Origin: Halobacillus kuroshimensis DSM 18393
GTDB lineage: Bacteria > Bacillota > Bacilli > Bacillales > Halobacillaceae
Reading direction: 5' to 3'
Assembly (NCBI RefSeq): GCF_000425705.1
Contig: NZ_AUDY01000014.1
Span: 62,001 to 126,000, forward strand
Length of the DNA stretch: 64,000 nucleotides
Each line of letters starts with the position of its first letter. Positions within the stretch are counted from its first letter, which is position 1. Positions 405 through 21,392 of this stretch are shown here, piece by piece. Position numbers and translations under genes: made by a program. The notes under the pieces were generated by a model. It was given only the letters and a program-made list of their open reading frames with translations. It was not told the DNA's origin and did not search any database.

Positions 405-3236
<2,832 letters not shown>

Positions 3237-3257
3237 TTCAAGGCATAAAAAATACGA

Positions 3258-3331: not shown

Positions 3332-3341
3332 ATAATGAAGC

Positions 3342-3391
3342 AAAAACCCCTGTTTATGTGTGGTTCAATCACATGTGAACGGGGGTTTTTT
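3342..3391 (+). terminator. Hairpin with U-run between eno and int, masking the int ribosome site
   Basis: A long imperfect inverted repeat pairs AAAAACCCCTGTTTATGTG with CACATGTGAACGGGGGTTTTT and ends in a T-run. It can act as a bidirectional terminator, replacing the eno terminator that the island displaced. The integrase ATG (3392) follows the T-run immediately, so the GGGGG that would serve as its ribosome binding site is inside the stem. Confidence 0.75.
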
Positions 3392-4300
3392 ATGATTTCA
3401 GCACTATTGAAAGAATTTGTATTTGATTTGAAGATAAAAAATTATTCAGAAAAGACCATTGAGACGTACAATTACAACTGCTCACAATTTGTATATTATC
3501 TTCGGGATAATTTTGAAATTGACGATATTGAGGACATATCCACGCTCCATGTTAAGAAATTCATTCAGCATCAAACGAGTATAGGAAACAAACCAACTTA
3601 TATTAATTCTTTGATTAAATCGCTCCGGGCATTTTACGTATATCTGGTCGAGGAGGAATATGTAGCGCTAAATGTTATGAAAAAAGTAAAATTCCTCAAG
3701 GAAGAATTGCCAGTAATTAAAACGTTCACCGACCAAGAAGTGGCAAGACTACTCGATGTTTATGATTTTAAAACGTATTTGAACGCAAGAAACAAAGTTA
3801 TCATTGCCATGTTTGTGGATACAGGTATTCGATTATCTGAATTAATTAACTTGCAAACGGAATGGGTGTACGACACGAATTTAAGTGTCTTTGGCAAAGG
3901 CAAGAAATGGCGACACGTGCCAATCAGTCTTATGTTGAAGAAATACATGATTCGTTACGAGCGTATAAAGGAGAAGTACTTCAGCAACAAAAACCTGGAG
4001 TACGGAAATTATATTTTGTCTCGAAGTGGAAAACAATTATCGACAGTTGCCATTGAAGATGTGGTTCGTAATGCAGGAAAGAAAGCAGGGGTAAGAGAGG
4101 ACATTCGTTGTTCACCTCACACATTGAGGCATTATTCCATTCAAGCGAACTTGAGGAATGGTTTGGATTTATATAGTTGCTCAAAGATTGCAGGGCATGA
4201 AAATATTCAAATCACGAAGCGTTATCTGCAAGGGTTAGAAACGGAAAACATTCTAGAAATGGCACAAAAGTCCAGTCCATTAATGAACATAAAAAAATAA
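3392..4300 (+). CDS. Tyrosine recombinase / integrase of the island
   Basis: This site-specific recombinase of the phage integrase family (302 residues from this start) is presumed to integrate and excise the island at eno. The N-terminal third (about residues 1-90) has the SAM-like core-binding fold pattern with KNYSEKTIETYNYN. The catalytic domain carries arginine in DTGIRLSELINL (about 147), the HTLRHYS box (about 243-249), histidine in KIAGHENIQ and the nucleophilic tyrosine in ITKRYLQGL (about 278). All active-site residues are therefore present. ATG 3392 is preferred over an upstream ATG at 3335, which lies before a terminator-like hairpin and would add 19 unrelated residues. The gene is adjacent to the att core, as usual. 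No separate excisionase is recognisable. Confidence 0.93.
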   Translation: MISALLKEFVFDLKIKNYSEKTIETYNYNCSQFVYYLRDNFEIDDIEDISTLHVKKFIQHQTSIGNKPTYINSLIKSLRAFYVYLVEEEYVALNVMKKVKFLKEELPVIKTFTDQEVARLLDVYDFKTYLNARNKVIIAMFVDTGIRLSELINLQTEWVYDTNLSVFGKGKKWRHVPISLMLKKYMIRYERIKEKYFSNKNLEYGNYILSRSGKQLSTVAIEDVVRNAGKKAGVREDIRCSPHTLRHYSIQANLRNGLDLYSCSKIAGHENIQITKRYLQGLETENILEMAQKSSPLMNIKK

Positions 4301-10914: not shown

Positions 10915-11280
10915 ATGAAAGTTAAAAAGTTCTGTACTTGTGGAAAGTTAATACCAGCGGATGAGAAGTGTAGATGTAAACGGAAAACAAAGCAGGAAGT
11001 GGAGAAACATAAAGTATTAACAACGAGAAGATACCGCAACTTTAGAGAGAGTATAATTGAACGTGATAATAAAATATGTCAAAGATGCAGGATTAAATAC
11101 GGTAAAGTTAATAAGTATAATATTGAATGTCACCACATTAAGTCACGCAGAGATTACCCAGAATTAGTAATGCAGGCAACAAACTGTATAGCACTTTGTA
11201 AACTGTGTAATTTAGAATTGGGGACAATAAACAAATTAGACTTTGACTATCAACCAAAGGAATTAAATGAATATGTATAG
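10915..11280 (+). CDS. HNH endonuclease, phage packaging type
   Basis: This 121-residue protein has an N-terminal Cys cluster (CTCGKLIP, CRCK) followed by an HNH domain. The visible elements are C-x2-C in CQRCRIKYG, the catalytic ECHHIKSRRDYPE, the Asn in QATNCIALCKLCN and the second C-x2-C. The final His of the classical motif is Asn here, which occurs in some phage versions. Small HNH proteins of this size lie directly upstream of the small terminase gene in cos-type phages and assist genome packaging. Here a P27-type small terminase follows at 11534. That context supports a packaging rather than a homing role. A ribosome site (AGGAAG) precedes ATG 10915. Confidence 0.8.
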   Translation: MKVKKFCTCGKLIPADEKCRCKRKTKQEVEKHKVLTTRRYRNFRESIIERDNKICQRCRIKYGKVNKYNIECHHIKSRRDYPELVMQATNCIALCKLCNLELGTINKLDFDYQPKELNEYV

Positions 11281-11533: not shown

Positions 11534-12034
11534 ATGAGACCTGCAAAATCTGTAAAACAAATGAGTATGAAAATGAGCAAGGATGAAATATCTGCTAGGG
11601 AAGAAGCAGAAGCACAAGTTTTAACGAACAATACCAAACCTAAGCAGAATGATATTGTAAAAAATAACATTTCTATGAGGAAGGTATTTAATCAATTAAA
11701 GAAATTTAATGAGCACTTTACTGAAGCGGATAGCATACCATTAAACACACTTACATTTAACATATACATTAAGCAGCAAAATGAAGACAAGCTTCTAGAG
11801 CTTGATGTTGAAGACCATGAATACGAGCGCTTTTTGTTACGGCTTGATAAAATAGACAAAAAGATTGATACGTCTATGAAACAGTTGTGCATACCATTAA
11901 ATGCGCGTTTGTCACTTGCTAACGATATGGCTAAGGTGATGATTGAAGAGCGGAAACTTGAAAACATAGAGACTGAAAAGAAACCTGTAAACCCTCTTGA
12001 TGCTGTACTGGAAGCGACTAAACATATCAAATAA
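11534..12034 (+). CDS. Phage terminase small subunit, P27 family
   Basis: This 166-residue protein shows features of P27-type small terminases. The N terminus MRPAKSVKQMSMKMSKDEIS with 'AREEAEAQ' is a hallmark start. A helical middle follows, and the C-terminal part SMKQLCIPLNARLSLAND matches the conserved 'GLxPxxR' region. Small terminases recognise packaging sites on phage DNA and hand them to the large terminase. No large terminase, portal or capsid gene follows; instead a convergent hydrolase gene begins. A lone terS, with HNH and integrase, is a signature of phage-inducible satellites that redirect helper packaging. It could also be a remnant of a decayed prophage. The ribosome site is AAGGGG. 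Confidence 0.75.
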   Translation: MRPAKSVKQMSMKMSKDEISAREEAEAQVLTNNTKPKQNDIVKNNISMRKVFNQLKKFNEHFTEADSIPLNTLTFNIYIKQQNEDKLLELDVEDHEYERFLLRLDKIDKKIDTSMKQLCIPLNARLSLANDMAKVMIEERKLENIETEKKPVNPLDAVLEATKHIK

Positions 12035-12062
12035 AAAAAGCTCTCATGTAAAGAGCTTTTTT
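12034..12062. terminator. Bidirectional terminator between terS and the Ntn-hydrolase gene
   Basis: AAAAAAAGCTCT pairs with AGAGCTTTTTT around a seven-base loop; it serves the convergent genes on both sides. Confidence 0.8.
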
Positions 12063-12077
12063 GTATTGTTTTTTTGA

Positions 12078-12824
12078 TTAAATTTTAATAGTAAATCTTT
12101 TATCTAAAATTTCCCCCAATTCACGTCCACCTTCAAACAAATCAATATTTTCTTCACTCAATCCTCTTGTATCAACACCATTCCACATAAAGCCCTTACC
12201 ATTGTTTTTTATGATGACTATGTCAATCGGAAAGTCTACTGATGCAAGGCTTTTTTGAAGGTCATGCTTAGTAACACCATGAATTCTTGCTAATTTTGGA
12301 AGACTTTTAGATATTATTTTATTAAAAGTAAGCTGAGCCCAAATATCCAAAACTAATTCATGGTTATGTGTGGCACTTTCCAACTCTGCTTGTGCAGTTA
12401 TTTCAAATTCTTTCTCAGGTATCCCTTTTACATTACTAGAATGACATTCTTTTACGTTTAAGTTCGCATCAATATCTATCATGAAACTCTTCTCATTGTC
12501 TAACCCGAACAACAACATTTCGTTAATAATACGAGTGTGGTCATACTTTTTGAATGTATCTATTATCAAATTAGTAGTATCATTTTTGTTGTAATTATTA
12601 TGTATTTTCCACTGTATTTCTTGGATGGGGCCTATATCGCCTGGATTACCTGCTACAGCTAAAGCTTTAGTATCAGTAAGCTTATGAATTTTCCTTGCAT
12701 AGTATTTTTCGAATTTTTCCTTAACGCTGTTCTTGTACTTATCTTTTTCTCCATCAGACAACCTTCGAGTATCTGCCGATACAAACACTCCATCACCAAA
12801 TAAAAAACCAATAATTGCAGTCAC
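12078..12824 (-). CDS. Proteasome beta / HslV-like Ntn hydrolase
   Basis: The GTG at 12822-12824 is chosen because GGAG stands nine bases upstream; an ATG three codons earlier abuts that site. This start gives Met-Thr-Ala-Ile, so methionine removal would expose Thr as N-terminal nucleophile, exactly as in HslV. Counting that Thr as 1, Asp17 follows in GVFVSADTRR, where proteasome beta subunits have their catalytic Asp17. After an inserted charged stretch, ARKIHKL aligns with the AKKI segment that carries Lys33, and ALAVAGNPGD matches the next beta strand. The 248-residue length is close to the family. I see no partner ATPase. The gene is divergent from hsdR, sharing a 180-base intergenic region. 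A peptidase or amidase role in defence is inference. Confidence 0.75.
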   Translation of the reverse strand: MTAIIGFLFGDGVFVSADTRRLSDGEKDKYKNSVKEKFEKYYARKIHKLTDTKALAVAGNPGDIGPIQEIQWKIHNNYNKNDTTNLIIDTFKKYDHTRIINEMLLFGLDNEKSFMIDIDANLNVKECHSSNVKGIPEKEFEITAQAELESATHNHELVLDIWAQLTFNKIISKSLPKLARIHGVTKHDLQKSLASVDFPIDIVIIKNNGKGFMWNGVDTRGLSEENIDLFEGGRELGEILDKRFTIKI

Positions 12825-12875
12825 ATTTCTCATCTCCTATCAAATTGTAATTTATGTAAATAATAGGGTTATATG

Positions 12876-12903
12876 TTACTGATTATATATTATGTGATAA
12901 AAT
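12876..12903 (+). promoter_or_regulatory. Candidate promoter of hsdR
   Basis: TTACTG (12876-12881), a 16-base spacer and TAAAAT (12898-12903) lie about 100 bases before the hsdR start in a very AT-rich divergent intergenic region. Other assignments are possible. Confidence 0.35.
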
Positions 12904-13002
12904 TTAACTATATATATTCCAGTCTTTTTAGAGCCAACCAAAACGGAAATTCATCAATTCTAAATGCAAATGATTAAAATACACTTACAAAGGATGATTT
13001 AA

Positions 13003-16000
13003 TTGCAAAGTAACTTTTCATTCTTTCGAGGTAATTGGGATGTTCTTGCTAACTTAGGAGAATCAGCAGAAAAAAACGTGCATAAAGACCCACATACTAC
13101 GTTAATGAAACTGCGTTTATTTGGCGAGACCATTTCTAAGTTCGTATTAGCAATGGAAAACATCCCTGAAGCCCCTAGAGAAAGCCAAGTAGACCGTATT
13201 AATACATTACGTAAAGAAGGGTTAATTGAACCTGAGCTAGTAGACATTTTTCATACGCTTCGATTAAAGGGAAACCAGGCGTCACATGAAGCAGATTACG
13301 GTGGAGTTGAAGAAGCACAAGCGTTACTTAAGCTGGCGTTCCGTTTATCAATTTGGTTTATGGAAGTGTATGGCGATTGGAATTTTGAAGAGCCAGAGTA
13401 CATAACTCCTGATGATTTTGACAGCATTGATGTAGATACACTCCAAAATGAATACGAGGACAAAGTGAAAGAGCTTGAGAATGAACTGGCAGCATTAAGA
13501 CAAAAAGCTGAAACAGAACATGCAGATGTGAGAAATGAACGGAAAAAAGCATCTAAAAGGTTCATGCAACGTCAGCAATTAACAGAAGCAGAAACTCGCT
13601 CTATCATTGACGGAAAACTGCGTACTGCTGGTTGGGAAGTAGACTCTAATACGCTAAATCACCATTCTCAAGGGACTCTTCCAGAGAAAAATAGAAACAT
13701 GGCTATTGCTGAATGGAAGACTAAGGGAGGGCGTGTTGATTATGCTCTGTTTATTGGTCTTAAATTAGTAGGTTTGATAGAAGCGAAAGCAAAAAAAAGG
13801 AACATACCAGGCGTGTTGGAAAGCCAAACTAAAACCTATGCTAAGAACATTTTACAAAATGATAGTGAAGAGATAATCGGTAGTTCTGGACAGTATATGG
13901 TACCTTTTTTATATGCTACAAACGGTAGGCCATACTTACAACAGTTAAAAGAAGAATCTGGCATTTGGTTCTGGGATTCCCGGAAACCACTGATACACGC
14001 ACGTCCATTAGAAGCTTGGCATTCACCTGCGGACTTGGAGATGCTTTTAAGTCAAGATGACACTGATGCTAATAAGCGTCTTGAAGAAGAAGATATTACC
14101 AAGTTCGGATTAAGAGATTACCAACAAGATGCTGTTTTGGCAACAGAACATTCTCTTAAGGAAGGGCAACGAAGAATGTTGGTCGCTATGGCAACGGGAA
14201 CTGGTAAGACACGTACTGCTATAGCTCTAATGTATCGGTTAATTAAATCGAAAAAGTCCCGTAGGATATTATTTTTAGTAGACCGTAACTCATTAGGTGA
14301 GCAGGCGAAAAATTCACTGGATGATACCAAGATTGAAGGTCTTTCCTTTTCGGATATTTACAATGTTAGTTCTCTTGAGGATGTAACTCCTGATGTGGAA
14401 ACAAGAGTCCATATTGCTACAGTTCAAGGTATGGTAAAACGATTGTTTTACAATGATGGAGAAAACATTCCAAGTGTTGGTCAGTATGACTTCATCATTG
14501 TCGATGAAGCTCACCGTGGCTACACTGTTGACCGTGAAATGACTGACGAAGAGCTGGAGTTTAAAGACCAAAATGATTATGTGAGTCAATACAGACGTGT
14601 AATTGATTATTTTGATGCTTCTTGTTTGGGGTTAACTGCTACTCCTGCACTCCATACATCTCAAATCTTCGGAGAACCTATTTTTAAGTATTCGTACAGT
14701 GAAGCCGTTTTGGATGGTTGGCTAGTTGACCACGAACCACCGTACTTATTCCAAACTGAACTTGCTCAAGCGGGAATTAGTTTTGAAAAAGACGAAGAAG
14801 TTGAAGTATATGATGTGGATAGCGCTGAGATTCAACTAGAGAAAATGGAAGATGAGTTGCATTTTGACGTGGCACAGTTTAACAGAAAAGTCATTACTGA
14901 ACCTTTTAACAGAGCTGTTCTAAATAAATTAACAGACTATATAGACCCTACCAGCAATGAAAAAACACTTATATTTGCGGCTACTGACCAACATGCAGAT
15001 TTAATTGTTCGTTTATTGAAGGAAGCATTTACAGAGCGGGGCGATGAAATAGAAGATGATGCCATAGCAAAAATTACTGGTTATACCTATCACGTCAAAG
15101 AAGCAATCAGAAGGATGAAAAATGAGCGGTTACCAAATGTCATTGTAACTGTTGATTTACTAACAACTGGTATTGATGTTCCTTCGATTACGAACCTTGT
15201 ATTTATGAGACGTATCCAATCACGTATTTTGTATGACCAGATGTTGGGCCGTGCTACTCGCTTATGCCCTGACATAGGTAAAACGCATTTCAATATTTTT
15301 GATGCCGTGGGTATCTATGACAAGTTGAAAAGTTACACTGAAATGAAACCAGTTGTTAAGAAGCAAAGTGATAGCATCAGCAAATTACACGAATCATTCG
15401 CTAATGCTGATTCTGAAGAAGAGGAATCGTTTTTTAAAGAACAACTTGTGGCAAAACTTCAAAGACGCAAGCAAAAACTAAATGATGAGGCTGAACAAAA
15501 ATTTAAGGAATTATCAGATGGCAAAAGTATTGATGAATGGGTGAATGATGTACAATCATATACACCTAATGAAGCAAGAGGAAATACTGTATTATTCGAA
15601 TTTATAGAAACGTATAGACCAAGTGGTGAAAAACGCTACATTTCCAACAAGGAAGATAGCGTGGAAGATGTAGTTCGAGGTTATGGTAAAGGAAATAGTC
15701 GACCTGAAGACTATATTGATGGTTTTGTTAATTACATCAGAGAAAATCTTAATGAAATTCCAGCACTTTATCTCGTATGTACAAAACCTAAAGACTTAAC
15801 AAGAAAAGACCTCAGGGAATTGATTACAGTTCTTGAAACGAAAGGTTTTAAAGAATCTCATTTACAAACAGCGTGGAAACAAACTAAAAATGAAGACATA
15901 GCTGCTGACATTATTAGTTTTATTCGCCAAGCTGCTCTAGGCGAAGCGCTTGTAGACCACGACGCTCGTATTAAAAATGCCATGCAAAAAGTCTATTCCT

Positions 16001-16209
16001 TAAATGATTGGACTCCAAGGCAGAAAAATTGGTTAAAAAGAATAGAGAAACAATTGCTTCAGGTCCCTGTATTAGCACCTAATCCAGAAGAAGCTTTTTC
16101 TGAAGAGCCATTTAAAAGTAACGGTGGTTATAAAACATTAAAACGTGAGTTTGGAGAAGATATTGACATTGTTGTTAGGACAATTAATGAGAGCCTATAT
16201 GTAAGTTAA
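13003..16209 (+). CDS. hsdR: Type I restriction enzyme, R subunit (nuclease/translocase)
   Basis: HsdR is the motor and nuclease of a type I restriction complex; it reels in unmodified DNA and cuts it. The start is TTG 13003, with AAGGAT about nine bases upstream. In 1068 residues the order is a DUF4145-like N-terminal domain (to about 150), then a coiled linker (KVKELENELAALRQKAE). Next comes a PD-(D/E)XK nuclease domain (VDYALFIGL and LIEAKAK, about 245-265). The helicase has Walker A ATGTGKTRTA (about 396), DEAH in IIVDEAHRGY (about 499) and a TATPAL motif. The helicase C-terminal part contains TTGIDVPSITNLVFMR, and an EcoEI-type C-terminal domain ends the protein. The frame is intact throughout, so the gene looks functional. 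Confidence 0.95.
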   Translation: MQSNFSFFRGNWDVLANLGESAEKNVHKDPHTTLMKLRLFGETISKFVLAMENIPEAPRESQVDRINTLRKEGLIEPELVDIFHTLRLKGNQASHEADYGGVEEAQALLKLAFRLSIWFMEVYGDWNFEEPEYITPDDFDSIDVDTLQNEYEDKVKELENELAALRQKAETEHADVRNERKKASKRFMQRQQLTEAETRSIIDGKLRTAGWEVDSNTLNHHSQGTLPEKNRNMAIAEWKTKGGRVDYALFIGLKLVGLIEAKAKKRNIPGVLESQTKTYAKNILQNDSEEIIGSSGQYMVPFLYATNGRPYLQQLKEESGIWFWDSRKPLIHARPLEAWHSPADLEMLLSQDDTDANKRLEEEDITKFGLRDYQQDAVLATEHSLKEGQRRMLVAMATGTGKTRTAIALMYRLIKSKKSRRILFLVDRNSLGEQAKNSLDDTKIEGLSFSDIYNVSSLEDVTPDVETRVHIATVQGMVKRLFYNDGENIPSVGQYDFIIVDEAHRGYTVDREMTDEELEFKDQNDYVSQYRRVIDYFDASCLGLTATPALHTSQIFGEPIFKYSYSEAVLDGWLVDHEPPYLFQTELAQAGISFEKDEEVEVYDVDSAEIQLEKMEDELHFDVAQFNRKVITEPFNRAVLNKLTDYIDPTSNEKTLIFAATDQHADLIVRLLKEAFTERGDEIEDDAIAKITGYTYHVKEAIRRMKNERLPNVIVTVDLLTTGIDVPSITNLVFMRRIQSRILYDQMLGRATRLCPDIGKTHFNIFDAVGIYDKLKSYTEMKPVVKKQSDSISKLHESFANADSEEEESFFKEQLVAKLQRRKQKLNDEAEQKFKELSDGKSIDEWVNDVQSYTPNEARGNTVLFEFIETYRPSGEKRYISNKEDSVEDVVRGYGKGNSRPEDYIDGFVNYIRENLNEIPALYLVCTKPKDLTRKDLRELITVLETKGFKESHLQTAWKQTKNEDIAADIISFIRQAALGEALVDHDARIKNAMQKVYSLNDWTPRQKNWLKRIEKQLLQVPVLAPNPEEAFSEEPFKSNGGYKTLKREFGEDIDIVVRTINESLYVS

Positions 16210-16308: not shown

Positions 16309-17739
16309 ATGAACAACCAAGAAATAGTACAGAAACTATGGAAATTATGTGATGTGCTACGTGATGATGGGATTACATATCAAGAATATGTAACGGAATT
16401 AACATATATTTTATTCCTTAAAATGATGAAAGAGCAGGATACTGAGTCAGTTATTTCTGAGGGTTATCGTTGGGATAATTTAGTACAAAAGGAAGGTACT
16501 GAATTAAAAAGCTTTTATCAAGAACTGCTATTAAAATTGGGCAAAAGCGAAAATAATAAGCTTCAACAAATTTATATGGATGCTTCCACTAGAATCACAA
16601 GTCCTAAAAACTTAGAAACAATAATTAAATCTATTGCTGGCCTTGACTGGTATAACGCTAAAGAAGAAGGCTTGGGGAACCTTTATGAGGGGCTACTCCA
16701 GAAGAACGCAAACGAGACTAAATCTGGGGCAGGCCAATACTTCACTCCTCGAGTGTTAATTGATTTAATTGTTCAACTTGTAGACCCGAAGGTTGGGGAA
16801 AAGTTAAATGACCCCGCTGCTGGAACATTTGGTTTTATGATTTCAGCTGACCAGTATTTAAAAAATAAGACAGACGATTATTTTGATTTAGACCCAGAAT
16901 CAGCAAGGTTTCAAAAAGAAGAAGCGTTTACAGGGATGGAACTTGTACAAGGTACTCACCGTCTTGCGTTAATGAATGCTTTGCTTCATGACATGGAAGG
17001 TCGTTTAGAGCACGGTGATTCCTTGTCTGGAAATGGTAAATGGATAAAAAACTTTGACGTTATATTAACCAACCCACCTTTTGGTACCAAAAAAGGGGGA
17101 GAACGTGTCACTCGTGATGACTTAACCTTTGAAACGTCTAACAAACAATTAAACTTCTTGCAGTTAATTTATAATGCTTTAAAAGATGATGGTAATGCTC
17201 GTGCTGCTGTAGTATTACCTGATAATGTGTTGTTTGAAAGTGGTGTAGGTGCACAAATTCGTAATGATTTATTAAATAAGTGCGACTTGCATACAATTTT
17301 GAGATTACCTACTGGTATCTTTTATGCTCAAGGTGTAAAAACGAATGTATTATTTTTCAAAAAAGGTAGAACCGACAAAGAAAACACAAAAAATGTATGG
17401 GTGTATGACCTTCGAACGAACATGGAGTCATTTGGTAAACGTAATCAATTAACAATGACTCACTTTGAGAACTTTATGAAAGCATATAATGCTGAAGAAC
17501 GTTCAAAAGTAAATGATGAGAGATGGAACAATTTCACAAGAGAAGAAATTGCAAAGAAAAATGATAGCTTGGACATAGGGTTAATTGCTGATGAATCACT
17601 GTCATCTTACAACAACTTGCCAGACCCAGTTGAATCAGCAGAAGATGCAATATTGAAGCTTCAAACGGCAATGAGTTTACTGAATGAAGTTGTAGATGAA
17701 CTTAAAGCTGGTGAAGAAGATAAGGTGATTAACAAATGA
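16309..17739 (+). CDS. hsdM: Type I DNA methyltransferase, M subunit
   Basis: HsdM methylates adenine at the site recognised by HsdS and protects host DNA. The 476-residue protein has the helical HsdM N-terminal domain (about 1-130, with VQKLWKLCDVLRDDGITYQE). The SAM-binding motif is DPAAGTFGFMI, and the catalytic N6-adenine motif NPPF is near residue 255. GQYFTPRVLIDLIV precedes motif I, as usual for the family. ATG 16309 is preceded by GGGGGA. The gene overlaps hsdS by four bases (ATGA), so the two subunits are coupled. Frame and motifs are intact. Confidence 0.96.
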   Translation: MNNQEIVQKLWKLCDVLRDDGITYQEYVTELTYILFLKMMKEQDTESVISEGYRWDNLVQKEGTELKSFYQELLLKLGKSENNKLQQIYMDASTRITSPKNLETIIKSIAGLDWYNAKEEGLGNLYEGLLQKNANETKSGAGQYFTPRVLIDLIVQLVDPKVGEKLNDPAAGTFGFMISADQYLKNKTDDYFDLDPESARFQKEEAFTGMELVQGTHRLALMNALLHDMEGRLEHGDSLSGNGKWIKNFDVILTNPPFGTKKGGERVTRDDLTFETSNKQLNFLQLIYNALKDDGNARAAVVLPDNVLFESGVGAQIRNDLLNKCDLHTILRLPTGIFYAQGVKTNVLFFKKGRTDKENTKNVWVYDLRTNMESFGKRNQLTMTHFENFMKAYNAEERSKVNDERWNNFTREEIAKKNDSLDIGLIADESLSSYNNLPDPVESAEDAILKLQTAMSLLNEVVDELKAGEEDKVINK

Positions 17740-19217
17740 GTAAGAAAAAAAATACCATTGATGAATTATTGGAAGAAGCGATAATACCTGAGGATGAGCA
17801 TCCTTATGAGGTGCCAATGAATTGGGTTTGGACGTATGTAAAGTCTATTTCAGAGGTAAAAGGGGGCAAAAGACTACCCAAAGGAGAAAAGTTAACAAAA
17901 CAGATAACTGAACACCCATACCTAAGAGTTGTAGATTTAAGAGGTGGAACTGTTGATGAGGATGATTTAAATTATATAACTAAAGACGTGTATGAAAAAA
18001 TATCAAGATACACAATTGGTTATGAAGATGTTTATATTACAATTGCTGGAACCATTGGAAGAGTAGGAACTATCCCTTACCATCTCAATGGAGCAAATTT
18101 AACGGAAAACGCAGCTAAGATTACAAATATAAAGACTACAAATAAAAATTATCTTTCACAGGTGTTGGAGTCAAATGTAATTACTCAACAAATAAGTGCA
18201 GCAGTAAGGGCTACCTCTCAACCAAAATTAGCTTTGCACAGAATAAAAGACCTTGCAATACCTTTGCCTCCACTTAATGAACAAAAGCGTATAGCTGAGA
18301 AGGTGGAACGTCTTTTAAATAAAGTTGAAGAAGCAAAACAGTTAATTGAAGAAGCGAAAGAAACATTTGAGCATAGACGTTTAGCAATCTTGGATAAAGC
18401 ATTCCGTGGAGAACTAACTGCTAATTGGCGTAAAAAACATAATCAATATCACATTTCTATTAATTATATTAATGAAACGAAAAAAGAATATTATGAGTCT
18501 TTAGAGAAAAAGGCGAATTCTGTGGAAGAAGTCGACCAGAGTAATTATCCTTTCAACATTCCTACCGAATGGAAATGGGTCAAAGCAATAGATGTGTGTG
18601 ATGTCAGGGACGGTACACACGACTCACCAAAGTATATGAAGAATGGATATCCATTAATAACCTCTAAAAATCTTAAGTTCGGCGAAATAGATTTTAGTAA
18701 CGTAAAATATATAAGTGAAACAGACCATAACAATATAAATAAACGTTCCAAAGTGAATGAGGGTGATATCTTGTTTGCCATGATAGGAACGATTGGGAAT
18801 CCTGTATTAATTAGAGAAATTAAGGAAGAATTTAGTATAAAAAATGTCGCATTATTTAAGTCTCTAAAAAGTGTTAATGAAGAATTCTTAGCATATTATC
18901 TAGAAAGTATTAACTATTTAGAACCTATAAAAAAGAATGCTAAAGGAAGTACTCAAAAGTTTGTAGGTTTGAATAAGTTGCGTGAAAGCTTAATTCCAAT
19001 TCCACCTCTAGAGGAACAACTAGTTATAGTAAAAGAATTAAAGAAGTTACTTAATTATGAAAAGCAATCATTTAAAAAGATAAGGGATATTAATATAGGA
19101 GAGTTGAGGGAATCAATTCTTTTAAAAGCCTTTAGAGGTGAGCTTGGAACGAACGACCCAACTGAAGAAAATGCGATTGAACTTTTAAAAGAAAGTCTTC
19201 AAGAACAAGTAAAATAA
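17736..19217 (+). CDS. hsdS: Type I restriction-modification specificity subunit
   Basis: HsdS determines the bipartite DNA target of the complex. The 493-residue protein has two target recognition domains (about 20-190 and 265-430). Each is followed by a conserved helical spacer: LPPLNEQKRIAEKVERLL ending AFRGELT, and IPPLEEQLVIVKELKKLL ending AFRGELG. The duplicated 'ILxKAFRGEL' ends show that both half-subunits are complete. The start codon overlaps the hsdM stop. HsdS genes are often swapped by recombination at these spacers; only one copy is present here. The recognised sequence cannot be predicted from reading alone. Confidence 0.95.
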   Translation: MSKKKNTIDELLEEAIIPEDEHPYEVPMNWVWTYVKSISEVKGGKRLPKGEKLTKQITEHPYLRVVDLRGGTVDEDDLNYITKDVYEKISRYTIGYEDVYITIAGTIGRVGTIPYHLNGANLTENAAKITNIKTTNKNYLSQVLESNVITQQISAAVRATSQPKLALHRIKDLAIPLPPLNEQKRIAEKVERLLNKVEEAKQLIEEAKETFEHRRLAILDKAFRGELTANWRKKHNQYHISINYINETKKEYYESLEKKANSVEEVDQSNYPFNIPTEWKWVKAIDVCDVRDGTHDSPKYMKNGYPLITSKNLKFGEIDFSNVKYISETDHNNINKRSKVNEGDILFAMIGTIGNPVLIREIKEEFSIKNVALFKSLKSVNEEFLAYYLESINYLEPIKKNAKGSTQKFVGLNKLRESLIPIPPLEEQLVIVKELKKLLNYEKQSFKKIRDINIGELRESILLKAFRGELGTNDPTEENAIELLKESLQEQVK

Positions 19218-19824: not shown

Positions 19825-20334
19825 TTAAATTTCATAGAGTATATCAGACCTTCCCCTCAATTTATCTGAAACAGAAAGATACCACGATTGATGGCGTTTA
19901 CTCCACTTTTTAAGGATTAAAAAGTTTTCCCATGTTATTTGATATATTGCTTTTAAGGAGAAGTTTTCATCAAACATTACTATAATTACGTATTCAAATA
20001 ATTTGTCTTGAGGTAGTTTAGAATCTTTCGGATTTAAGTCTTTAAAAACTCCAGTTGTGCTGTTGGATGTTGTTTTGATACTGTAACGTTCATTTTGTGT
20101 ATTGATGGCATCCACATTTTTTTGCCCAATGGGCTCTGCTTGCAAATCTGGCAATGAAGAAGTTTTTTTATAATGATTTAATGCTCGCGTTTCTCCCATG
20201 TCTCCAACGACATTTTTGGTCCTTATTATCTTTCTGTCTCTTAATACTTTTAATAATACGCCATAGCTTTCAATGAGTGTATCGTCATCCATTCTCCTTA
20301 ATATTTCCCTCAATTTTTGTATCAAATCTTCCAT
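19825..20334 (-). CDS. PD-(D/E)XK-like nuclease fold protein (DUF6998-like)
   Basis: The ATG at 20332-20334 has GGAGG seven bases upstream. The 169-residue protein has an N-terminal helical part. A restriction-endonuclease-like core follows: VVGDMGETRALNHY (Glu48), then NVDAINTQNERYSIKTTSNS, giving Asp75 and the SIK motif with Lys87. Spacing and the 'GE...D...xIK' order resemble the DUF6998-type proteins I remember, which I believe have this fold. It may be a restriction or repair nuclease. It is leftward and convergent with the gene at 19348, at the right-hand side of the type I RM locus. Catalytic activity is inferred, not shown. Confidence 0.6.
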   Translation of the reverse strand: MEDLIQKLREILRRMDDDTLIESYGVLLKVLRDRKIIRTKNVVGDMGETRALNHYKKTSSLPDLQAEPIGQKNVDAINTQNERYSIKTTSNSTTGVFKDLNPKDSKLPQDKLFEYVIIVMFDENFSLKAIYQITWENFLILKKWSKRHQSWYLSVSDKLRGRSDILYEI

Positions 20335-20395
20335 CAAAAGTCCTCCCTTAAAAAACTGGATTACTATACATTACACATATATCAGTGAAATCCTC

Positions 20396-20423: not shown

Positions 20424-20453
20424 AACTTCAAATAGACTTTGGAGGGTTTGTAT

Positions 20454-21083
20454 ATGGAAGAGAAATATTATGTTTACACTCATGAACTTGATGGGGAAAT
20501 CATTTACGTTGGGAAAGGTTCAAGATATCGTGCAAAAAACTTCGGTCATAGAAGGGAAAAGTGGAAGGAAATTGTGAGCGATAAAGAACACTTAATTAAA
20601 GTGGATATTGTTGGATGGTTCCAGGATGAAATGCAAGCATACGCTACTGAAGAAGAATTAATACGCTACTATAAGAAACAAGGTCTTTGCAAAGCGAACG
20701 TAAGCATTGGTAGGAAACACGCTGAAGAGATTAAATCATTGATAAGTGAAAAAGTTAAAGGGCTAAATAATTCAATGTATGGCAAGACTTTTACCAATGA
20801 ACATAAACGGAATCTGAGCGAGTCTCGAAAAGGCCCCAAAAATCATTTGTATGGTAAAACTGGTAGGGAGCATACAAGTTCAAAACGAGCAGTTGCCATA
20901 TTCCCGAACGGCAAGAAAGTGCAAGCACATTCGAAAAAGGAATTGGTGGCAATTATAACTGAGGAATACGGGATAAGTGGTAGTATGATTAACCGATTAT
21001 TTGCTTCTGGAGAACCTTTTCAAGCAAGGTATAAGAAACATGAAAGAGCAAAAGGAATGGTAGTTATGTATAATTCAGCTTAA
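20454..21083 (+). CDS. GIY-YIG endonuclease with NUMOD DNA-binding modules
   Basis: ATG 20454 (MEEKYYVYTHELDGEIIYVG) is preceded by GGAGGG. In 209 residues the order is as follows. A GIY-YIG nuclease domain (YYVYTH...IIYVGKGSRYRA, about 1-80) has its glutamate in a TEEELIRYY segment. One or two NUMOD3 repeats (NNSMYGKTFTNEHKRNLSES and NHLYGKTGREH) come next. A NUMOD1-like segment (AVAIFPNGKKVQAHSKKELV) ends the protein. This architecture is that of free-standing homing endonucleases of phages. It is the last gene before the right end of the island and may spread independently or cut rival elements. All recognisable modules are intact. Confidence 0.85.
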   Translation: MEEKYYVYTHELDGEIIYVGKGSRYRAKNFGHRREKWKEIVSDKEHLIKVDIVGWFQDEMQAYATEEELIRYYKKQGLCKANVSIGRKHAEEIKSLISEKVKGLNNSMYGKTFTNEHKRNLSESRKGPKNHLYGKTGREHTSSKRAVAIFPNGKKVQAHSKKELVAIITEEYGISGSMINRLFASGEPFQARYKKHERAKGMVVMYNSA

Positions 21084-21278: not shown

Positions 21279-21323
21279 TACGGACCGCGTAGCGAAATAC
21301 AACCAGCTTCTTCGTATCGAAGA
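21279..21323 (+). other. attR core (45-bp direct repeat)
   Basis: It is identical over 45 bases to 3131-3175 in eno. Sequence to its right is the displaced eno end; sequence to its left is island. Confidence 0.92.
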
Positions 21324-21384
21324 TCAGCTGCTTGGTACGGCCGTTTACGCTGGTGAGAAAGCTTTCTACAACCTGAATAAGTAA
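21279..21384 (+). pseudogene. eno: Displaced 3' end of the original enolase gene
   Basis: In the eno frame, 21280-21384 encodes the last 34 residues of enolase and a TAA stop. It differs from the working gene by silent changes and by Val for Thr at 416 and Glu for Lys at 420. No start codon, ribosome site or upstream gene body exists, so it is not a second enolase. It marks the point where the chromosome resumes. Confidence 0.92.
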
Positions 21385-21392
21385 TTCTGCTC

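Follow-up and report, generated by a model that had tools for sequence, protein, structure and literature searches.

The window analyzed here, a 64-kb stretch of Halobacillus kuroshimensis DSM 18393 DNA, encodes a protein that, judged from its sequence, is most likely a stand-alone relative of the proteasome activated by removal of its initiator methionine. The gene is carried on an integrative element beside a type I restriction-modification (RM) system, and a distant relative occurs beside a different type I system in Streptococcus. Because the element carries defense genes, the Streptococcus RM link is independent and other groups of the family have a phage setting, we tentatively favor a role in phage-host conflict, e.g., as an AAA+-independent selective peptidase or transpeptidase.

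Results

Gene, start site and transcription unit

An open reading frame at 12078–12833 of the minus strand was confirmed in the window, and the features discussed below are collected in Table 1. Read along the minus strand, the sequence around the start is AGGAG-ATGAGAAAT-GTG-ACT, with the GTG at 12824–12822. An alternative ATG at 12833 abuts the AGGAG, whereas the GTG is spaced 9 nt from it and is for that reason the likely start. With a Thr codon directly following the GTG, Thr is likely to become residue 1 of the predicted protein once Met has been removed. In 60 simulated islands no stop-free stretch exceeded 178 codons, a length that the reading frame surpasses, and codon use was coding-like in the gene's own frame only (0.197); values for the remaining five frames ran from -0.08 to -0.26. 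A terminator scan returned one hairpin on both strands, hence two sites where shuffled sequences lead to an expectation of 0.5, and a promoter scan gave no promoter-like match within the intergenic region common to the gene and hsdR. The gene has its own terminator-like hairpin and is divergent from hsdR, and so looks like an independent transcription unit outside the hsd operon; it is an autonomous cargo gene of the element.

Table 1. Positions of the features described in the text (window coordinates unless a locus is named)
Feature	Position	Strand	Remarks
Proteasome-like Ntn-hydrolase gene	12078..12824	-	248 codons, GTG start; profile and residue evidence
Ribosome-binding site AGGAG	12834..12838	-	9 nt 5' of GTG; read from sequence
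Terminator-like hairpin	12034..12062		Both strands; between the gene and convergent ORF 11534-12034
Divergent intergenic region common to the gene and hsdR	12839..13002		Sequence, promoter scan
Left end of element, eno 3' end (109 bp)	3131..3239	+	Repeat comparison
Right end of element, duplicated eno 3' end	21279..21387	+	91% identical to left end
Tyrosine integrase of the element	3335..4300	+	
HNH endonuclease-like cargo gene	10915..11280	+	
hsdR, type I restriction subunit	13003..16209	+	TTG start
hsdM, type I methyltransferase	16309..17739	+	
hsdS, type I specificity subunit	17736..19217	+	
Methyl-directed type II restriction enzyme-like gene	19825..20337	-	mREase_II E 4e-56; weak DUF6998
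NUMOD3 / GIY-YIG-like gene	20439..21083	+	
Virion-protein/proteasome-like gene pairs	L036:4903-6212, L088:8849-10170, L090:8995-10436, L105:8149-9593		PHROG 4311 for L088, L090 and L105; L036 alike by eye

Active site

The codons of the predicted catalytic residues lie at 12821–12819 (Thr1), 12773–12771 (Asp17), 12692–12690 (Lys44, the equivalent of Lys33) and 12650–12648 (Gly58, the equivalent of Gly47). Two claims of the earlier note, that the ribosome site sets the GTG start and that the active-site set of an Ntn hydrolase is complete, are thus borne out, with Gly58 as a further member of the set. The spacings from Thr1 to Asp17 (16) and from Lys to Gly (14) both match proteasome numbering, whereas that from Asp to Lys is 27 instead of 16, i.e., 11 residues have been added. 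This interval is also long in the relatives L033 (26) and L103 (24), with 10 and 8 extra residues, respectively.

Among 23 aligned relatives, Asp and Gly were present in every protein and Lys in 17. Homologues had been expected to keep Thr, Asp and Lys; this held for Asp throughout and failed for the nucleophile in two of the 23 (L089 and L091, where Gly replaces it) and for Lys in six (L098 and the group L089, L091, L092, L095 and L099). The latter, a chromosomal group, has His or Ser at the Lys33 equivalent, and its proteins are still conserved; going by these residues, the group is probably non-catalytic or employs another chemistry. The window protein, with its four residues in place, is probably catalytically active.

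Search for homologues

Queried on its own, the window protein found no proteasome in the PDB by phmmer and, by tblastn, no match in 50,697 phage records or in plasmid records. Peptide-pattern searches gave 32 matches in genome_contigs and three in viral_contigs (IMG/VR), none of which was confirmed, and no PADLOC model matched at E 0.01. Within its family, 44 genomes were searched; the 43 besides its own contained no relative, which leaves the window gene as the sole copy among them. The only other match in 397 genomes of the order (L002, E 0.009) was dropped once its sequence had been read. Single-protein matches to Pfam Proteasome (18 bits against a curated cut-off of 22.4, E 0.0023) and to TIGR03634, archaeal proteasome beta (19.9 against 224 bits, E 4e-4), fell below and far below their thresholds, respectively, and none of the general Pfam/TIGR families matched was Anbu-named.

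Relatives were recovered with profiles. Pfam PF00227 was run on 150 genomes of the order; 147 gave a match over the cut-off, which was taken as hslV without individual reading, and 36 had more than one match. Apart from hslV, the window gene itself and the second piece of a gene in genome G100, there were 45 weak rows, of which eight were read: five were rejected and three (L033, L036 and L037) were kept, being small stand-alone proteins with a Met-Thr or Met-Ser start and Asp at position 17. When a profile of these three and the window protein was searched in 397 genomes of the order, 15 of 49 rows besides the own gene were kept, three of them the seeds, and four were rejected on reading, as the N-terminal signature was absent. 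The enlarged profile, applied to 398 genomes of the class, gave 16 rows, six of them new and kept. With one plasmid gene and more Streptococcus genes, the number of relatives read rose to 26, all in Bacilli. One IMG/VR contig carries another member of the family, and three relatives queried against phage records had no match there.

Family assignment

A profile of 23 relatives from which the window protein was left out scored it at 31.9 bits over residues 1–210, compared with 9.4 bits for the best of 2000 shuffles and 12.9 bits for HslV of the same genome. This test is not wholly independent, because many relatives had been found with a profile containing the window protein, although it had no part in the search that recovered L033, L036 and L037. 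At E <= 1, an 18-row family profile that included the window protein had matches to 339 distinct sequences of the PDB, and every one of the 60 matches listed was a proteasome subunit (best E 1e-10). The residue that follows Met, at position 2 of the profile, aligned to residue 1 of the chain in 17 of these 60, and such chains presumably begin at the mature nucleophile. The window protein was 14–23% identical to 17 relatives and, at 248 aa, was longer than 22 of the 23 (184–238 aa), the exception being L104 (403 aa). At E 1e-9, 24 proteins (the window protein included, HslV aside) formed 12 groups. From these comparisons we regard a proteasome-like fold as almost certain.

The designation "proteasome beta/HslV-like" therefore stands as far as kinship with proteasomes is concerned and does not stand for HslV in particular. 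HslV and the window protein have in common the Asp17, Lys33 and Gly47 center, and both are relatives of beta subunits, but HslV scores less than half as well on the relatives' profile. Identity with HslV was rejected, since hslVU is encoded at a different place in the genome (G000:C1), no hslU occurs among 13 ORFs of the element and the window protein is closer to the other relatives. With the beta subunit of the 20S proteasome it shares profile similarity and the residue-1 register. With PF00227 at E <= 1, hslV and the window gene were the sole matches in this genome, which leaves no alpha subunit; a bacterial 20S proteasome was likewise rejected, as there is no alpha subunit gene beside the beta-like gene.

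The mobile element and its cargo

The gene belongs to an 18.1-kb integrative element at the 3' end of eno, bounded by 109-bp repeats. The duplicated eno 3' end and the integrase agree with the earlier description of a mobile island, the hsdRMS genes and the start of hsdR with that of a type I system divergent from the gene. Also as described, no partner unfoldase was seen: no HslU-, Clp- or Mpa-type protein was found among the 13 island ORFs scanned with Pfam (small ORFs and the helicase domain of hsdR aside). Located 3' of hsdS on the opposite strand is a further restriction enzyme-like gene; since it matches methyl-directed type II enzymes, the element may hold modification-dependent beside modification-protected restriction.

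In a congeneric species (G004, locus L191) a sister element occupies the same eno site and has a 92% identical integrase. Its cargo matches SIR2 (PDC-S25, 7e-90), TIR (SpbK, 2e-54) and LmuA/RT-associated MBL (1e-23) defense models, and beyond the integrase no gene matched one of the window element at E 1e-5. On a comparison of these two elements, this family of eno elements seems to serve as a vehicle for exchangeable defense genes.

Recurrence beside a second type I system in Streptococcus

In four of six Streptococcus genomes (Marseille-Q0941, parasanguinis 886, HMSC078D09 and G812) the relative lies 49–53 bp 3' of hsdS on the same strand. This RM system is unrelated to that of the window, the HsdR proteins being ~22% identical over part of their length. 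Three HsdS types occur, 35–39% identical to one another, across which HsdR and HsdM are 90–97% and the proteasome-like protein 85–88% identical. The gene is also kept in cristatus S22, where HsdR, HsdM and HsdS had no match within 20.6 kb around it, and in G829, where a remnant corresponding to HsdR residues 1–75 (80% identical) lies directly 5'. The G829 protein is the most divergent Streptococcus member (58–62% identical). The HsdR remnant of G829 (locus L117:8611-12215) has an 881-aa helicase-like ORF next to it on the upstream side. Pairwise dN/dS was 0.16–0.35 in 14 of 15 Streptococcus pairs, values that include the RM-less genomes and are not specific to the branches after RM loss; the remaining pair had no synonymous change. 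In a scan of the genus, the gene was present in 5 of 197 genomes.

Neighborhoods of other relatives

Within the order, the surroundings of 23 genes related to the window's hsdR contained no such gene (in six of these the region extended <2 kb upstream to the contig end, and two were hsdR fragments). Conserved linkage with this hsdR was therefore rejected, and, the window copy having no close relative, its linkage is not demonstrably conserved. Besides the window's own, type I RM adjoins one of 11 groups. In two others a different defense gene is nearby: the L096 gene has a McrBC component at a distance of 2.6 kb, and for the L097 gene an OLD/Gabija-like protein is encoded at 1.3 kb. An AAA+ ATPase gene lies 3.2 kb from the L097 gene as well, so that a partner ATPase is possible for some relatives. 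This ATPase matches PF00004 with AAA_lid_6, and the gene set of the locus (L097:972-8986) includes a match to the candidate defense model PDC-M40B.

Three groups sit among phage virion or late genes. Among the relatives with phage-type neighbors, the L103 gene is 3' of a tape-measure gene, that of L033 is flanked by a tail gene and an endolysin, and that of L100 is ~2.5 kb from a terminase. In four genomes the proteasome-like gene is located directly 3' of a virion-protein gene, forming a conserved phage gene pair (Table 1). Three more groups have mostly housekeeping surroundings as judged by eye, one member (L037) being beside a recombinase-like gene; one group is on an E. faecalis plasmid, and the last (L104) has no clear setting. 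In the plasmid record (L106:9001-9612) the distant relative is annotated as a hypothetical protein.

When the 21 non-Streptococcus loci (20 distinct, since L037 and L166 overlap) were searched by tblastn with eight window and Streptococcus Hsd queries, no hsd gene came up, a result that very divergent systems could escape. Repeated linkage to RM or defense genes, which had been proposed as a check, is thus seen in Streptococcus and, with other defense genes, at L096 and L097, but not in the phage, housekeeping and plasmid settings of the remaining groups. From 50 N6_Mtase matches in 61 genomes, and assuming ~3900 genes per genome, the chance that a given gene adjoins RM is ~0.0004, and that at least one of 11 groups does so ~0.005, a figure that enrichment of mobile genes near RM could raise tenfold or more.

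Discussion

The earlier note had considered a stand-alone proteasome-like gene unusual. This view is superseded by Fuchs, Alva and Lupas (2021), who, in the portion of their article available to us, describe 22 new subfamilies of proteasome-like proteins, including five with names that refer to Firmicutes (FC1–FC5), with cluster membership defined by BLAST P < 1e-10 (PMC8665760). In view of these subfamilies, the window protein appears to be a very divergent variant of a published class. Compared by description only, FC1–FC5 (group II) and the window protein have in common their occurrence in Bacilli, Met followed by Thr or Ser, Asp17, Lys33 and Gly47, and the lack of both a propeptide and an identified AAA+ partner. 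The same portion of the article states that the functions of these homologues are not known, that neither co-occurring AAA+ interactors nor suggestive gene neighborhoods were found, and that more members are expected; a suggestive neighborhood is where the window protein differs. Other subfamilies are described there as phage-carried, and FC4 as having tail-like C-terminal domains (PMC8665760). In mainly open-access literature we found no paper linking proteasome homologues to RM or antiphage work. The parts seen of PMC13022661, which cites Fuchs et al., contain nothing on the function of the homologues, and in those of PMC12345140 hslV appears just among listed repressed genes and in one reference.

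Connectase offers a further comparison. According to the available text of Fuchs et al., it is a ligase, exemplifying the versatility of Ntn hydrolases, and carries between Asp17 and Lys33 an insertion that determines its specificity, a two-helix element between strands 3 and 4 (PMC8665760). Like connectase, the window protein is a stand-alone proteasome relative with extra residues in the Asp17–Lys33 stretch. It differs in that connectase is archaeal, and its own addition is just 11 residues, the two having been compared by sequence alone.

How the protein may act can be outlined as follows. Host methionine aminopeptidase would expose Thr1, so that neither a propeptide nor autolysis would be needed. 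The enzyme would be ATP-free, small or monomeric, and a substrate-selective peptidase or transpeptidase, in style nearer to connectase than to HslUV, with a specificity that may be shaped by the 11 extra residues and by the C-terminal tail. With no unfoldase among the element ORFs scanned, bulk degradation of folded proteins is unlikely, and the simplest inference is selective action on exposed segments. The substrate would be a protein of the phage-host conflict, either a phage protein or a partner defense protein, and the gene would then be accessory cargo, not a regulator dedicated to this RM system.

Among the other explanations, we considered that the gene encodes a dedicated RM-control protease, which would degrade or clip HsdR (or HsdS/HsdM) and so protect unmodified DNA as the element enters a new cell. 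The earlier note had raised such a role, and it has a precedent in the degradation of EcoKI HsdR by ClpXP, as reported in the part of PMC4231737 available to us. The gene's position is suggestive, being divergent from hsdR here and co-oriented 3' of hsdS in four Streptococcus genomes, i.e., in two lineages with unrelated RM. Strict RM control is nevertheless unlikely, because none of the 23 hsdR relatives carries the gene. In addition, two streptococci retain it without intact hsdRMS (one with the short HsdR remnant alone), the low dN/dS of 14 of 15 pairs covers these two genomes, albeit with the post-loss branches not isolated, and HsdR exceeds 1000 aa, yet the scanned ORFs of the element include no unfoldase. 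Since relatives persist without RM and the RM relatives of the window lack the gene, dedicated RM control is less likely than phage-host conflict, and we consider it distinctly improbable. It is also rather unlikely, though somewhat less so, that the family consists of phage late-gene products, such as hydrolases for virion maturation or entry, and that the element has captured a copy acting on or interfering with related phages. The relatives linked to virion, tail, tape-measure, endolysin or terminase genes (L036, L088, L090, L105, L103, L033 and L100) and the member on an IMG/VR contig speak for such an origin, as do the phage-carried subfamilies and the FC4 domains in the available text of Fuchs et al. 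(PMC8665760). Yet the window protein is unmatched in phage records, plasmids and IMG/VR, three relatives are unmatched in phage records, the window cluster consists of restriction genes with no phage genes, and other relatives are at RM or housekeeping loci.

The protein might instead be no protease at all but an Ntn amidase or ligase that acts on a small molecule, a peptide tag or a nucleotide-linked peptide in an ordinary cell role, with its neighbors as hitchhikers. The housekeeping-like surroundings of several relatives, judged by eye, would suit this idea, as would the connectase ligase and the versatility of Ntn hydrolases in the portion of Fuchs et al. cited above (PMC8665760). The profile similarity is, however, specific to proteasome beta subunits, and the mobile or defense setting recurs, which makes this alternative unlikely. 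A decaying or inactive relic without function is highly improbable: the cargo of mobile elements is often transient, and this is the sole copy in the 44 family genomes searched, but the frame is full-length and coding-like, none of the four catalytic residues is missing, a ribosome site is present, and the dN/dS of the Streptococcus relatives is at most 0.35.

We thus return to a role in phage-host conflict. A more specific form of it is that a branch of stand-alone homologues was recruited at least twice, independently, into mobile restriction-based immunity, where it would work with type I RM, or guard against its failure, as an ATP-independent Thr/Ser protease or transpeptidase; this we regard as a speculative possibility. 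If true, recruitment to restriction-based immunity would be the first functional setting for orphan proteasome homologues, and it could reveal a proteolytic layer in such immunity that does without an ATP-driven unfoldase. The homologues of 2021 lacked telling neighborhoods in the part of the article available (PMC8665760), and the window and Streptococcus loci now give a concrete context. That the Streptococcus gene is kept where RM genes are missing adds to this context for the question of phage-host conflict, and the distant relative beside a different Streptococcus restriction system hints at a possible role of these enzymes.
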